In this document: positions 29,170 to 55,794 of the stretch, piece after piece
Position numbering within the stretch: position 1 is the first letter of the stretch
Layout of the letters: each line of letters starts with the position of its first letter
Assembly: GCA_024372625.1 (NCBI GenBank)
Contig: CP099607.1
Location: 360,036 to 424,035 of the forward strand
Source: Comamonadaceae bacterium OTU4NAUVB1
Lineage (GTDB): Bacteria > Pseudomonadota > Gammaproteobacteria > Burkholderiales > Burkholderiaceae_C
Length of the DNA stretch: 64,000 nt
Reading direction: 5' to 3'
The notes under the pieces: generated by a model
Seen by the model: the letters and a program-made list of their open reading frames with translations, nothing else
Databases searched by the model: none
Told to the model about the DNA's origin: nothing
Program-made: the position numbers and the translations under genes

Positions 29170-30111
29170 ATGCACCCGCCCGCTCCCTCCCCGACGGCCC
29201 CTCGTGGATTCCATCCTCCCCGCGTGCCCGGCCGCCCCCGCACCTGGCGCATTGGCGCGACGCGCCTGGTCGCCGCGCTGGCCCTGGGCGCGGCCCTGGG
29301 TGGCTGCAGCGCCGTCAAGCTGAGCTACAACAACGCCCCCGAGATGGGCTACTGGTGGCTCGACAACCACGTGGACTTCCGCGACGACCAGACGCCGGCG
29401 GCGCGCGCGCGGCTGGCCGAGCTGCTCGCCTGGCACCGCGCCAACGAACTGCCCGAACTGGCCGGCCTGCTGGAGGACGCCGCCCGCCGGGCCCCGGACG
29501 CCCTGGCGCCGGCCGAGGTCTGCGCGGTCGACGACGCGGTGCGCCAGCGCATCCTGGCGACCGCCCGCCAGGCCTCGGCATCGGCCGCCACCCTGGTGGC
29601 GGGGCTGGACGCGGCGCAGGTGCGGCGGCTGGAGGAGAAGTTCGCGAAGAGCAACGCCGACTACGCCAAGGAATGGCTCGCGCCCGGACCCGAGGGCCAG
29701 CGCCGCAAGCGCTACGACAAGGACGTGGAGCGCTTCGAGGACTTCTACGGCCGCCTGGACGCGTCCCAGCGCGACGTGCTGCGCGAGTTCGCCGAGCGCT
29801 CGGTGTCCGACCCGCAGCGCACCGACGCCGAGCGTCGCCGCCAGCAGCAGGAGGTGCTGACCTGGCTGCGCGACCCGGCGCACCGGACGTGGTCCGAGGG
29901 CGAGGTGCGCGCCGCCGTCGACGCCTACGCGCGGCGCGGCATCCAGCCGGAGACCGGTGCCTGGGGCACCTACCGGCAGGCGCTGCGCCAGGAGAACTGC
30001 CGCAAGATCGCCGCGCTGCACGGCACCACGCGGCCCGAGCAGCGCGAGCGCGCGGCGCGCCGGCTCCAGGGCTACGCGCAGGACCTGCGCGAGCTGGCCG
30101 CCACGCCCTGA
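29170..30111 (+). CDS. DUF6279-type lipoprotein
   Basis: A 313-aa predicted lipoprotein. A basic, Pro-rich N-terminus leads into a hydrophobic segment and lipobox ALGGCSAVK (lipid-modified Cys at about 46). The mature part is Arg/Glu-rich and helical (KLSYNNAPEMGYWWLDNHVD; KSNADYAKEWLAPGPEGQRRKRYDKD), typical of the DUF6279 lipoproteins common in Burkholderiales. No enzyme motif seen. The start at 29170 is used because it gives a shorter pre-sequence than the upstream ATG at 29083. The response regulator follows after 70 nt and could be co-transcribed. Confidence 0.8.
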   Translation: MHPPAPSPTAPRGFHPPRVPGRPRTWRIGATRLVAALALGAALGGCSAVKLSYNNAPEMGYWWLDNHVDFRDDQTPAARARLAELLAWHRANELPELAGLLEDAARRAPDALAPAEVCAVDDAVRQRILATARQASASAATLVAGLDAAQVRRLEEKFAKSNADYAKEWLAPGPEGQRRKRYDKDVERFEDFYGRLDASQRDVLREFAERSVSDPQRTDAERRRQQQEVLTWLRDPAHRTWSEGEVRAAVDAYARRGIQPETGAWGTYRQALRQENCRKIAALHGTTRPEQRERAARRLQGYAQDLRELAATP

Positions 30112-50700: not shown

Positions 50701-50842
50701 TCGCTGTGTCCTCAGTGATCGACACGCGGTGGGAGAAATTGAGAGAAAACCCGCACATCGAGAAGAAATATTTCGGACGTGGGCTGCGGCGGCGAGATTC
50801 GTCGCTTCCAGTGTTTCGATGCCGGCGCCGATGCGGGTGCCG

Positions 50843-50866
50843 GTGCGAGTGCGAGTGCGAGTGCGA
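50843..50866. repeat. GTGCGA hexamer repeat, four copies
   Basis: Four perfect tandem copies of GTGCGA, preceded by diverged copies (GATGCGGGTGCCG). No gene is assigned here. Slippage-prone. Confidence 0.85.
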
Positions 50867-51465
50867 ATGCCGTGAAAGGAAGCGGCAGGGGTGCGCAGCT
50901 CTCACGTGGCAGCCCGCGTGAGTTCGCCGGCTGCCGACGATGCTTTGGGTCCACTCTTCGCCGCGCCAAAGTGTTTGTGTTCACTAACTTCATTTATCGA
51001 GTATTCGTTGCCTTTGGTCCTGAAGTACCAATCGAAGAGTGGCTCACCGACTGACGTGTGTGCCCGCATGGCGATGAATTCGGCTCGATCGCTGACACGC
51101 CGGCGTCTGAAGACAAGCGCTGACCCCTTGACAGGACATGCGCCAGAAACTCCGGCGGTGGCCAACCGGCGCGCTCTTGGTGTCCGATCGATGCCCAGGG
51201 GTGCCGGTCACTGGCTGCGCCAGGTCGATGAGGCGCGATCCTGAGGAGGGGAGTCACGAACAATCCGGCGAGTTCGCGCGGCGTGAGTCGATCCAAATCA
51301 CCGGTGTGGGTTCCACGTCTCAAAAGCCGGCATGGTCCATTTCTCGATTGAGATCCATACGTCGTCAGACGGGCCAGATGGCCTTCGCAACGACGCAGGA
51401 CATCATTCGACACGTGACAGTCGCTGGGATGAGCGAGCAAACTCGGCCGTCACGCCCTCGCAAAG

Positions 51466-51501
51466 AAAAAAAAGGGGGGGGTAGGACCGTCCTACCCCCC
51501 C
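51466..51501 (-). terminator. Intrinsic terminator of parAB, built on the GTAGGAC palindrome
   Basis: Read on the minus strand, a perfect hairpin with 13-bp arms (seven G, then TAGGAC, one central base, GTCCTA, seven C; 51475-51501) is followed by a run of eight T (51473-51466). It begins 22 nt after the parB stop. The same core recurs inside parB at 52152-52188. Confidence 0.8.
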
Positions 51502-51523
51502 GACCGCCAACGCGAACGCGCTC

Positions 51524-52585
51524 CTATTTGAGGAACGATTCGATCAACGCCGCAAGTTTCTGTCTGCGGCTCTCGTCGAGCTTCTGATTGATCTTCACGT
51601 TCACCTGGCCGATGGCGGACGTGGAGATCGTCGCGACGACGGTGCCGTCGCGTTCGATGTCGATCCTGTTGGGCGGCGCGTAGGCCGCCGGCGTGCCCTG
51701 CACCGCGCCCGTCAGGACGGCCAGGACTTCCTTGGCATTCATGCCCTTGCCGTTGATCGACTTGGCCCGACGCAGCAGGCCTTCCGGATCGCTCTGCTGG
51801 ACATCGTTCAGGGGTTTCGCCCAACGGAATTGCAGGTCGAGCGGAGAATGGAATGCATCGATCACCGCTTGTGGAAGGCGCGCCAGGGAGATCGCCTTGC
51901 CGACGTCCGCGACGTCCCGCCCGATGGCCGACGCGAGCTGGCGATTGGAAGCGTACAGCCCATGGTCGAGTGCGCGCGTGTACATCACGCCCTGTTCCCA
52001 GGCGGAGAGATCGGCGCGGTTACGGTTCTCCCGCTCCATCTGCACGAACAACTCCTGCTCGCTGGCCGATTCGATCAGCGCGAGGACCGGCAGGCCGAGT
52101 TCGAGGCAAGCGCGATGGCGCCGGTGACCAAAGACGATTTCGTACGACGGCCCCCCGGGGGGGTAGGACGGTCCTACCCCCCCGGGGGCGCCCTCCGGGA
52201 TCGGCCGCACCTTGATCGGCTGCACGTTACCCCCGGCACGTCCGATCTCGTCCTTCAGGGCGGCGAAGTCCGCGGATTCGAAAGACGAACTGTGCCGGTT
52301 GGCCCACCGCGACGGCACAACCTTGGTCGCATCGAGCAGCCGGGTGGGCTCGGCACCCTCGAAACGGGCCGCCTGCGTGCGCAGCAGCTCGTTCTCCTTC
52401 ATCGCCTCCGACTGGTTGGCCATGAAACCCATCAGCGTACCGGGCGCCGTCTTGGGCTTGACCGCCAGGCTGCCTCTCTCGGGCGCCGCCGGCGCGACCG
52501 GCCGGGATGCGGCGTCGCCGGAGACTTCGACCTTGGGCGGCGGGATCATCACCCGCCCCGCCTTCGCCAACAGATTGCGCGCCAT
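51524..52585 (-). CDS. parB: Partition protein ParB with a palindrome-encoded insert
   Basis: Centromere-binding protein, 353 aa. Seen: N-terminal ParA-interaction region with low-complexity linker; LKDEIGRAGGNVQPIKVRPI leading to VFGHRRHRACLELGLPVLAL (arginine-rich clamp-type motif of the ParB family, CTPase core); helix-turn-helix around YASNRQLASAIGRDVADVGK; and C-terminal dimerisation domain. Between RPIPEGA and SYEIVFGHRRHR lies a Gly/Pro-rich insert PGGVGPSYPPGGP, encoded by a 37-nt perfect palindrome (52152-52188). The ATG at 52585 overlaps the parA TGA by one base (TGATG), so translation is coupled. A terminator follows the stop. Confidence 0.93.
   Translation of the reverse strand: MARNLLAKAGRVMIPPPKVEVSGDAASRPVAPAAPERGSLAVKPKTAPGTLMGFMANQSEAMKENELLRTQAARFEGAEPTRLLDATKVVPSRWANRHSSSFESADFAALKDEIGRAGGNVQPIKVRPIPEGAPGGVGPSYPPGGPSYEIVFGHRRHRACLELGLPVLALIESASEQELFVQMERENRNRADLSAWEQGVMYTRALDHGLYASNRQLASAIGRDVADVGKAISLARLPQAVIDAFHSPLDLQFRWAKPLNDVQQSDPEGLLRRAKSINGKGMNAKEVLAVLTGAVQGTPAAYAPPNRIDIERDGTVVATISTSAIGQVNVKINQKLDESRRQKLAALIESFLK
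52152..52188. repeat. 37-nt GC-rich perfect palindrome inside parB
   Basis: Two 18-nt arms around one central base (52170): five C, seven G, TAGGAC, central G, then the mirror image. The inner 27 nt repeat the parAB terminator hairpin at 51475-51501, apart from the central base, which is inverted as expected for opposite orientation. Here no T-run follows. The codons stay in frame and give the Gly/Pro-rich insert of ParB. Confidence 0.9.
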
Positions 52586-53805
52586 CACTTGACTCCTTTC
52601 TTTGCAGTCGCTCGCACCGACTCGTCGAGCTGCCGGTCCCATACCGTCCGGATCGAGCCCTCGACCAGCGAGACGAACTGGTCGTAGGCGTCTCTGGCAC
52701 GCTTGAACGTCCGTGCGTTCCCGTCGTAGCGCGACACGTCGTACACCGTCCCGAACTCGGCGCTGGCCGTGGCCGTCACCGCCGTCTTGGGGATCTCGAT
52801 CGGCAGCACCTTTTCCGCGTACGTCGACCCGATCCACTGGCGCACCACGCCGCTCGCCGCGTCCGAGGAATCGACCCGCGACAACAGGACGTTGATGAAA
52901 TCGAACTCTTTGGTCAATCCCCGCTCGGTCAACAGCGAATTCGTCAATTCCGAGAACATGCTCCAGAACTGCGCGGCCGACGCGAAGTCCAGCGCACTGG
53001 GCGGAAGGGGCATCACGATCCCGTTCGACGCCATGAACGCATTGATCGTCACGTAGGAAAGGGAAGGTGGCGTGTCGATCACGATCACGTCGTAGTCGGA
53101 ACGGACGTCGTCGATTCCCAGATCGAGCACACGCCAGAATTCGAAGCCCGGCTCCTGGGACTGGCGAGCGGGGAGGGCGAACTCGGCACCGAACAAGAGC
53201 GGCGCCGCCGCGACCAGATCGATGCCGTCCCAGTACGTCGACCGGATCGCGTAACGGATGGACGTCTCGGACCCCATCGCCAGCGGAAGGATGGTCTCCT
53301 CTTCATTGACCTCGGTGTCCGGAAGGATGCCGAACAACGTCGTCAAGGACCCCTGCGGATCGGTGTCGATCACCAGCACCCGATGTCCGAGCAGCGACAG
53401 TCCCTGGGCCAGGGTGACCGCCGTGGTGGTCTTCGACACCCCCCCCTTGAAATTGCCGATGCTGATCGTCACCGCTTCCGCACCCACTGGCCGGAGAAAC
53501 TCCTTGCGGTACTCCTTGACCCACGACCGTGACTCCTGCAGCGTGAATTCCCGCCGGCTGCCGGAACTGTTCAGTTGCCCAGCCGGCAGGTCGCCCTTGG
53601 CGATCCGGTGACTGACGGAACCCTTCTCGGCCGAGCACATCGCTGCAAGCTGGCTGAGGTTGAAGACCGGCGGTGACTTGCGTGCCGACGGCGCCAGCAT
53701 GGCCACCCTGATCTCTCCCATCATCGCGATCGCCCGCTCGGCCTGATCGGCGATGTTCGCGAGCGTGATCCGACGCGGACGAGTCAAATTCAATTTGTTC
53801 AACAC
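52585..53805 (-). CDS. parA: Partition ATPase ParA (type Ia-like)
   Basis: Chromosome/plasmid segregation ATPase, 406 aa. An N-terminal helix-turn-helix-like region (about 45-95, PVFNLSQLAAMCSAEKGSVS) is followed by deviant Walker A KGGVSKTT (120-127), Walker A' LVIDTDPQGSLT, Walker B VIVIDTPPSLS and a C-terminal helix rich in basic residues. The size and N-terminal domain point to type Ia, whose members autorepress the operon. Ser at the fifth Walker position is a variable site in this class (SopA has Tyr). Start GTG at 53805 with CAGGAGC 4-10 nt upstream; that stretch also resembles the iteron core near 54.05 kb. Confidence 0.93.
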   Translation of the reverse strand: MLNKLNLTRPRRITLANIADQAERAIAMMGEIRVAMLAPSARKSPPVFNLSQLAAMCSAEKGSVSHRIAKGDLPAGQLNSSGSRREFTLQESRSWVKEYRKEFLRPVGAEAVTISIGNFKGGVSKTTTAVTLAQGLSLLGHRVLVIDTDPQGSLTTLFGILPDTEVNEEETILPLAMGSETSIRYAIRSTYWDGIDLVAAAPLLFGAEFALPARQSQEPGFEFWRVLDLGIDDVRSDYDVIVIDTPPSLSYVTINAFMASNGIVMPLPPSALDFASAAQFWSMFSELTNSLLTERGLTKEFDFINVLLSRVDSSDAASGVVRQWIGSTYAEKVLPIEIPKTAVTATASAEFGTVYDVSRYDGNARTFKRARDAYDQFVSLVEGSIRTVWDRQLDESVRATAKKGVK

Positions 53806-54049
53806 AATGCTCCTGATGAAACGGATGCCGGACCTTTTACGGAAAGCGGCGGTTCACCGTACATTGTGTCAACTAAGGTCCCTGCAGAGAAGGTTGGAAC
53901 TCGTTTTAGAGAGATGCTCAGGTCTTCTTTTGCACATATCAGACACCCTGAGGATTTATAAAGTATCAACCCTTTAGTTCCTTTAATACATTTAGAGAAA
54001 AAAAAGTTCATACGGATCAATGGGTTAACTCATATTTTGCAGGTGGATA

Positions 54050-54103
54050 CAGGAGCATCCGGCGACTTTTCAGGAGCGTCCGTATGCATCTACAGGAACA
54101 CGC
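54050..54103. repeat. Iteron set A: CAGGAGCATCC-type, three copies
   Basis: CAGGAGCATCC at 54050-54060, CAGGAGCGTCC at 54071-54081 and the diverged CAGGAACACGC at 54093-54103. The starts are 21 and 22 bp apart, two helical turns, as in plasmid iterons bound by a Rep protein. They flank the AT-rich segment. Confidence 0.7.
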
Positions 54104-54124
54104 ATGCAGGGCGGCAGGACCTGA

Positions 54125-54323
54125 CGTGAGGGTCTTCGTGAGTCCGGTCGAGTGGTGGGCAAGTGCTGCAGGTTTTCATCTGCTTCCCCCGGAATCGGGT
54201 CCCATCAGGCATCGGAGAGAGCCTGTGACGCGGCAACGCAATGCCACAGCGAGCGCAGAGGTGAGGGTTTTCAGGAGTCACTTCCTCGCTCATGGCTTCG
54301 CACACGTGAGGGTTTTCAGGAGT
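54125..54323. repeat. Iteron set B: CGTGAGGGTTTTCAGGAGT-type, three copies
   Basis: The 19-mer CGTGAGGGTTTTCAGGAGT at 54305-54323 recurs with one change (first base) at 54260-54278, and in diverged form at 54125-54143 (GTCTTCGTGAGT at the right end). The 3' part shares CAGGAG with set A. The last copy ends 76 nt before the rep start, so Rep may also autoregulate from here. A further copy lies at 56276-56290. Confidence 0.7.
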
Positions 54324-54399
54324 TGAAAGTCGTTTTCCTCGACGTGTCTTGATGTGAGTCGCGGTTTCTCCTGAAGCGACGCTGCGGTAGAGTGCCCCA

Positions 54400-55794
54400 A
54401 TGGATCTCCCGACCGAAGCCCCGCCCCTTCCTCGGCCCCGCAGACGGGCTGCTTTGTCCGGCGATGCGCAGATCGCCCTGTTCCAGCAACCTCTGCTCAA
54501 GCCGGTCAACACGCTCGGTTGGACGCCCAAGGAAAAGAAGATCACCATTCTTGCGCGCAAGAGCTGGAACGTCCTCCTGCATCTGGCCCAGAACCAGGGA
54601 CTGGACAAGGAAGTCTTCACCGCCACGCTGTCGCGGGTCGTCAAGAGCATCGACTACGGCTCCAACGACCTGGAACTGATCAAGAAGCACCTGCGCGGCA
54701 TGGTCTCCACGACGGTCGAGTGGCAGTCGCCCACGTCAGGGGAGGGCGGATACTGGACCGTTTGCGGCCTGCTCTCGCATGCGAAGCTCACGAAGGTGCG
54801 CGGTGAGATCTGGGTCGAATGGTCCTACGCCGTGAACATGCGTCAGGAGCTGCTGGAGCCGCGCGTTTTCGCGCGTCTGCAATTGCCGATCCTCTCGCAG
54901 TTGCGCACGCACGCGGGCTTGGCCCTCTACGAGATCTGCACACGTTACAAGGACATCGGGCGCACGGCCCGCCAATCCTGGCATTGGTGGCGGCCGGTGC
55001 TCACGGGACGGCCGGACAACGAGAAGACGGCCCGCATGGAATACCGCGTCTTCAAGCGCGACTGCCTGCGCCTCGCCATCGCCGAGATCTCCGCGGTCAC
55101 CGACATCGAGATCGAACTGGTCGAGTACAAGGCCGGTCGCTTCATCTCGGACCTGCAGTTCCTCGTCAAGCCGAAGTCGCAGCAGGACCTTCCCCTGATC
55201 GCATCGACCCGACCCGTGGACATCGCCGTGATCGAACGCGCCGGGCGCCAGGGCATCGACAGCGATCGCGCGGAATCGCTGCTGGAAGAGTTCGGCGAAG
55301 CGTCACTGGCGGCGGGCCTGGACGCGCTCGAACGACGCGTCGCCTCGGGGTTTCCGGAGCCCTTGCGTGATCCCTACCGCTACCTGAAGTCGCTCATGCC
55401 GGGAGAAGCCAAACGCGTCCAGACCGAGCAGGTCGCGCAAGCGGCCAGGATCGACCCCGCAAGCCCGGTCGTCCGCGCCGCACAGGCGATGCGCCACGCG
55501 AAGTGGGCCGAGCAATGGCTGAGGGAGCGGCGCACGCAGGTGATCGAGGAGATCCAGCAACTCTCCCAGGACGCGCAGAACGACCTGGAGCGCGCGTTGC
55601 TGCAGGACATGGAACAGCGCAATGTCCATCCATCGATCCGCAAGCGCCTGCAGTCGAGCGGCTGGGAACACCAAATCGTCGTGCAGGACATGGTCCGCTA
55701 CTACGCGCAAGCCACCCATGGTCCGGCATGGGACCAACCCACCGATCGCGACCTGCTGGACATCGCTTCGCGGGCCGGCGGTGTCTCAGGGTGA
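54400..55794 (+). CDS. Replication initiator protein (Rep_3-like)
   Basis: A 464-aa initiator of the kind that starts replication of secondary replicons in Burkholderiales. The N-terminal half (SGDAQIALFQQPLLKPVNTL; KKITILARKSWNVLLHLAQN) leads to a winged-helix-type DNA-binding region (LPILSQLRTHAGLALYEICT), typical of the Rep_3/RepA superfamily. The C-terminal ~130 residues are helical and charged (WAEQWLRERRTQVIEEIQQL). It starts beside the iterons and is divergent from parAB, the classical rep-iteron-par layout. Longer than many plasmid initiators (about 300 aa), as in large replicons. Confidence 0.88.
   Translation: MDLPTEAPPLPRPRRRAALSGDAQIALFQQPLLKPVNTLGWTPKEKKITILARKSWNVLLHLAQNQGLDKEVFTATLSRVVKSIDYGSNDLELIKKHLRGMVSTTVEWQSPTSGEGGYWTVCGLLSHAKLTKVRGEIWVEWSYAVNMRQELLEPRVFARLQLPILSQLRTHAGLALYEICTRYKDIGRTARQSWHWWRPVLTGRPDNEKTARMEYRVFKRDCLRLAIAEISAVTDIEIELVEYKAGRFISDLQFLVKPKSQQDLPLIASTRPVDIAVIERAGRQGIDSDRAESLLEEFGEASLAAGLDALERRVASGFPEPLRDPYRYLKSLMPGEAKRVQTEQVAQAARIDPASPVVRAAQAMRHAKWAEQWLRERRTQVIEEIQQLSQDAQNDLERALLQDMEQRNVHPSIRKRLQSSGWEHQIVVQDMVRYYAQATHGPAWDQPTDRDLLDIASRAGGVSG

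Follow-up and report, generated by a model that had tools for sequence, protein, structure and literature searches.

How replicons that share a cell keep their centromeres distinct is a key issue in the biology of multipartite genomes. In the parAB locus analyzed here, a palindrome occurs twice, once shortly after parB and once inside the parB reading frame. The window (the whole stretch of 64,000 nt that was analyzed) is the final 64 kb of the 424-kb contig C5. The original prediction had named an intrinsic terminator as the role of the first copy, and for the pair of copies either a mobile repeat or a cis site bound by the ParB of the locus. The features are listed in Table 1.

Table 1. Features of the parAB locus of contig C5 (window positions)
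Feature	Position	Strand	Remarks
T8 run past the copy 1 hairpin, parAB strand	51466..51473	-	one C between palindrome and T8
parS copy 1 (predicted)	51475..51501	.	27-nt perfect palindrome, core 51480-51496, 22 nt past parB
parB, 353 aa, ParB/RepB/Spo0J family partition protein	51524..52585	-	ATG overlaps parA stop
Codon of Asp227, predicted recognition helix of ParB	51905..51907	-	co-varies with half-site base 5
parS copy 2 (predicted)	52152..52188	.	37-nt perfect palindrome, core 52162-52178, parB codons 133-145
parA, 406 aa, ParA/RepA/SopA-like ATPase	52585..53805	-	ORF and profile matches
Rep_3-type replication initiator adjoining parAB	54400..55794	+	ORF and profile match

The two perfect palindromes with a common core were confirmed. 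Both contain the 17-nt core GGTAGGACNGTCCTACC, with arms of 13 nt (copy 1) and 18 nt (copy 2) around a single centre base each, and the half-site (the seven-base arm) is GTAGGAC. They are the longest perfect palindromes in the window, the third being 25 nt (centre of 0-1 nt, arms of at least 9 nt), and the two predicted sites are 682 nt apart. Even when three mismatches were allowed, only these two matches to the core were found in the window, against a mean of 0.09 and a maximum of 1 in 100 shuffles. A search of the whole 4.66-Mb assembly, which had been proposed originally, was carried out with the 17-nt core and returned exactly two exact copies, both in the parAB locus; at up to three mismatches, 12 matches were obtained compared with 15 for a reversed control pattern, that is, no excess. 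A REP-like mobile repeat, for which many dispersed copies would be expected, was rejected on this count. No match was found when positions 50800-54500 were searched against Rfam at E values up to 1, and no relative was found in phage records and one viral_contigs scan. Elsewhere on the contig of the window, an identical 17-mer with three mismatches to the core was seen at 29346-29362 and 54453-54469 of C5 (genome G000), and this repeated 17-mer may be the mark of a duplicated element.

According to profile searches, ParA matched AAA_31 at residues 113-290, as well as RepA over 17-391 and SopA over 38-325, the latter two below their cut-offs. ParB matched TIGR00180 above the cut-off (80.8 vs. 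58.45 bits), and matches to ParB_N, Pfam SoPB_HTH and RepB were all below cut-off. Spo0J, Noc and SopB chains could be aligned to the protein, and its helix-turn-helix (HTH) part matched the SopB chains 3mkz, 3mkw and 3mky (E 0.002-0.009). This likeness to SopABC of the F plasmid, where the sopC repeats form an array that lies beyond sopB, is weak. A Walker-type ParA ATPase with an N-terminal extension, an operon with parA upstream of parB, a ParB with an N-terminal ParB domain and an HTH, and a replicon-specific predicted palindromic parS near parAB were all found, and on these features the locus is predicted to work like a type Ia-like ParABS partition system. Within the same genome, each of contigs C1-C5 carried one ParB_N-type match (two of the five below cut-off), which is consistent with five separately partitioned replicons. 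The parAB locus on contig C4 had a different candidate palindrome, GTTGTACNGTACAAC, in a single occurrence.

A genus-level search of 101 genomes revealed a ParB homologue at E ≤ 1e-30 in 64 of them, and 91 non-redundant related parAB loci formed the first sample. A locus-specific palindrome with arms of at least 7 nt was present at least twice near parB in 75 of these loci, with a centre of one base in 74 of the 75; the other 16 loci were without a recurrent palindrome, and when all 91 were shuffled 20 times each, zero recurrent palindromes were obtained. The arms differed by locus (TTTGAAC, GTAGTAC, GTGGTAC, GTTGAAC, GGAAACC and others). With the loci added by a family-level ParB search (37 of 399 genomes, E ≤ 1e-72) and a pattern search (23 of 399), the total came to 138; 14 loci that had been fetched by DNA pattern and were without a family ParB (L163-L165, L172-L178, L182-L184 and L190) were dropped before the counts, leaving 124. 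A motif was assigned in 112 of these, 10 of them by hand from single or near copies, and 12 were without one; L168-L170 and L181 had been found via the motif and not via ParB. The motif definition required recurrence, and the counts are therefore too low for loci that have a single copy or whose palindrome is even (L085, for instance). GGGTCGGACNGTCCGACCC or near forms of it were observed in several genomes of the family (L172-L176, L182-L184), where the fetched stretch contained no family ParB. The largest array found, in L088, comprised 15 copies of GGAAACCNGGTTTCC in the parA-parB gap and the start of parB.

Next to the nearest ParBs from other genera (L134-L138), the symmetrically changed form GTTGGACNGTCCAAC was found, and every one of these loci has a copy in the parB loop where copy 2 lies. 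The exact core occurred in 13 stretches of the species-level genome collection, 12 of which belonged to bacteria or archaea of other groups. The remaining one, in Variovorax sp. ZS18.2.2 (L040), lies directly past parB (56% identity) and is followed by T6, and a second copy with one mismatch is in frame at the same parB loop. It had been reasoned that the mobile-repeat idea would fail if close relatives all lacked both copies; this relative has both.

The placement of copies within and around the operon would also suit an operator, on which ParB mainly represses parAB while the true centromere lies elsewhere, and proteins of the ParB type contribute to autoregulation, as RepB does together with RepA (available part of PMC4492784). 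However, in many loci the copies lie far beyond the downstream end of the operon or form arrays of up to 15, as would be more fitting for a centromere, and among perfect palindromes no second class was present at the window locus, so that the operator reading is very unlikely.

Co-variation between ParB and the palindrome was analyzed in 74 ParBs that were mutually less than 85% identical. In 72 of the 74, residue 227 agreed with arm base 5 of the half-site: Asp227 went with G (12/12), Asn227 with T or C (26/26) and other residues with A (34/36), the exceptions being L119 and L083. When the base was predicted only from ParBs less than 50% identical, column 227 was right in 65 of 74 cases; the runner-up column reached 47, and always choosing the commonest base gave 34. 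A hold-out set of 30 further loci contained 23 new ones, 14 with and 9 without a recurrent palindrome, and the rule was correct in 13 of the 14; the miss, on a Cupriavidus oxalaticus plasmid (L199), has His227 and carries TATACATNATGTATA twice downstream of parB. Residue 227 aligns within the HTH of Spo0J, Noc and SopB, in the helix that is established as the recognition helix of ParB proteins. Thirteen of the top 25 residue-arm pairs fell within alignment residues 194-250 (46 of 284 columns). Residue 227 is not the only co-varying residue, because the strongest single pair was arm base 7 with alignment residue 194 (193 in ParB numbering). A quick tree built from 82 ParBs required 8 changes of the residue class, 8 of the base class and 10 for the two combined; only two or three independent tree pairs were available, none contrary and too few to reach significance. 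The 74 ParBs had 27 half-site types, some of which may be one site in another register. As judged from these comparisons, the palindrome tracks its ParB across loci.

Two near-identical palindromes, one of them within a coding frame, are what a mobile palindromic repeat inserted into parB and the terminator would leave behind. Nevertheless, this explanation is next to impossible, given that the assembly holds just the two copies in parAB, that the loop slot contains different palindromes in different lineages, and that the arms vary between replicons in step with ParB. The palindrome is instead very probably parS, the centromere-like site of the replicon's own ParB. The basis is comparative: the locus-specific recurrence, the symmetric arm changes, the residue-base co-variation together with the hold-out, the conservation of the loop copy as DNA and the association with T-runs strongly support the cis site that had been proposed as one of the possibilities.

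As predicted, copy 2 is in frame within parB, in the loop preceding YEIVFGHRR; the peptide PGGVGPSYPPGGP that had been noted corresponds to residues 134-146, one residue further on than the codons of the palindrome itself. In the AlphaFold2 model from the single ParB sequence (mean pLDDT 38.9), strands at 125-129 and 147-151 flank the insert, and the alignment and this low-pLDDT model place the in-gene copy in a loop of the N-terminal domain between two strands. A copy inside parB (at most one mismatch) was found in 62 of 112 loci and in 27 of 50 clusters (70% identity, with motif). By locus, the copies occupied the N-terminal region (29), the loop before YEIVFGHRR (19) or the linker after the HTH (19), one was unplaced and some loci had two; assignment to the N-terminal slot hinges on the start codons that the script selected, and 28 of its 29 loci have one motif in common. 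The loop insert, whose presence in related ParBs was to be checked according to the original prediction, was thus found in 19 of the 112 loci. It occurs in the genus of the window, under 11 further genus codes within the family, and on named plasmids from Ideonella dechloratans and Cupriavidus metallidurans. The view that this part of ParB tolerates only short variation was roughly right: the loop had a median length of 10 residues (5-19) in 92 ParBs without a loop parS vs. 18 (13-56) in the 19 that have one (p 2e-10, without correction for relatedness).

It might be supposed that the loop peptide is what is selected and that the palindrome is a by-product of its codons, since GVGPS-type peptides recur in the nearest relatives and the GTTGGAC loop copies are all in frame 0 (5/5). 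However, L064 has three loop copies, with one mismatch each, of which one is in another frame, so that the same DNA is read in two frames, and GTTGAAC copies likewise occupy two frames at either position, 10 and 1 for the loop and 8 and 1 for the linker. These in-gene copies in two reading frames led to the rejection of peptide-level selection as the main cause, which is extremely improbable. Because L064 has its three copies there in two frames, the comparison indicates that the in-gene loop copy is kept as DNA and not as peptide.

On the tree, the loop trait required at least 6 changes and the linker trait 10. Loop or linker copies went with overlap of parA and parB (median gap -2.5 vs. 47 nt, 24 vs. 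25 clusters, p 0.001), and clusters with such copies seldom had copies in the parA-parB gap (2/24 vs. 12/25, p 0.004). Copies in the parA frame were also observed, 34 in 33 loci; 29 of the 34 sit between 27 and 52 nt ahead of the parA stop codon, which means that the coding DNA of parA also harbours the site.

For copy 1, the distance past parB and the eight T on the parAB strand were as described originally, except that the T-run begins one base after the palindrome. The RNA of this copy folds into a 12-pair hairpin (-26.3 kcal/mol) followed by T8, and a G+C-rich hairpin with a T-run after the last gene is the layout of an intrinsic terminator. Terminator-like sites in 51000-55000 numbered 2, below the shuffle mean of 3.6. 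A T-run, defined as four or more consecutive T in the interval that starts 2 nt before the end of the palindrome and extends 13 nt past it, was found after 24 of 34 perfect copies located up to 60 nt past parB (window locus and relatives), compared with 6 of 110 further downstream, 0 of 64 inside parB and 1 of 150 upstream. Since the T-run usually adjoins the first copy and never an in-gene one, the first copy after parB probably doubles as the terminator of parAB, in agreement with the original prediction.

These data could also be read as RNA elements only, with copy 1 a plain terminator and copy 2 a hairpin or attenuator in the parB mRNA, neither of them bound by ParB. Both RNA folds are strong (-52.5 kcal/mol for copy 2), and T8 follows copy 1. 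Still, any self-complementary sequence could make a hairpin, but here the copies within a locus have the core in common and it tracks residue 227, and most copies are without a T-run, which makes an RNA-only role highly improbable.

The reading as parS suggests the following mechanism, in which ParB binding, segregation, termination and autoregulation through the in-gene site are inferred from sequence. A ParB dimer would place each HTH domain on one half-site, and Asp227 in the recognition helix would help to read base 5 of GTAGGAC. Once on parS, ParB would spread along adjacent DNA, and ParA would move it, in the manner of other ParABS systems. At copy 1, flanked by G/C and the T-run, the same DNA would give the hairpin and U-tail that end parAB transcription. 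At copy 2, the extra residues would be tolerated in the ParB loop between two strands of the N-terminal domain; in-gene sites are commoner where overlapping parA and parB leave no room between them. More tentatively, and perhaps rather doubtfully, parB may carry its own centromere as an evolving in-frame cassette in dispensable segments (the N-terminal region, the CTP-domain loop and the linker that follows the HTH). A site and its reader would then be passed on and diversify as one unit; ParB on the in-gene site might block parB transcription, and the 3' copy would be centromere and terminator. Independently of this cassette idea, one palindrome is likely to serve as centromere, terminator and coding sequence, and the predicted in-gene centromeres accompany operons without room between parA and parB. 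Since one residue predicts one base and 27 half-site types are present, a ParB-parS code would be directly testable.

Previous studies have already described parS inside parB or repB (available parts of PMC4442127, PMC4492784 and PMC9040568). In the chromosomal system of Bacillus subtilis, parS-359 lies within parB itself as it does here (PMC4442127), but one universal chromosomal parS, TGTTTCACGTGAAACA (PMC5450999), is used there and not a replicon-specific odd palindrome. The Bsr parS of secondary replicons in Burkholderiales is an even palindrome of 16 bp that has CG at its centre and is rich in T towards the 5' end (PMC5450999). The likeness lies in parAB genes of secondary replicons in the same order and in a palindromic, replicon-specific parS that must not cross-react within the cell, whereas in the window and its relatives the arms surround one centre base that varies, and G is often their first base. 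The odd palindrome of the window, with its one centre base, is distinct from the Bsr type.

In repABC plasmids of Alphaproteobacteria, whose RepA and RepB profiles match ParA and ParB of the window below cut-offs, the parS consensus is the even GTTNNNNGCNNNNAAC. There, parS lies within the operon or close to it; in pRleTA1b it is found in the coding sequence of repB, and in Rhizobiales at the 5' end of that gene (PMC9040568, PMC4492784). The window differs in having a Rep_3 initiator on the other strand and no RepC, and its palindrome is odd and has no central GC; neither loop or linker slots nor terminator fusion were found in the available parts of these repABC descriptions. The ParB of the Polaromonas plasmid pE5SP1 (H17) belongs to the ParB family of the window, with one GTAGTACNGTACTAC downstream of parB. 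Putative parS sites of pE5SP1 and related plasmids are listed in Table S6 of PMC6015842, where the ParA of the relatives was assigned to class Ib, and part of the parS family of the window may thus have been predicted earlier for a few relatives, as far as the available part of that paper indicates. Searches of the article texts in an open PMC library gave no earlier description of replicon-specific odd palindromes, of recurrent in-frame slots in loop and linker, of more than one copy in the loop, of the fusion with a terminator or of the residue-base rule. Among the related loci, GTGGTTT and GTAGTTT forms occur together in L109 and L110, and their close relative L120 has only GTAGTTT; the mixed forms look as if the site were changing.
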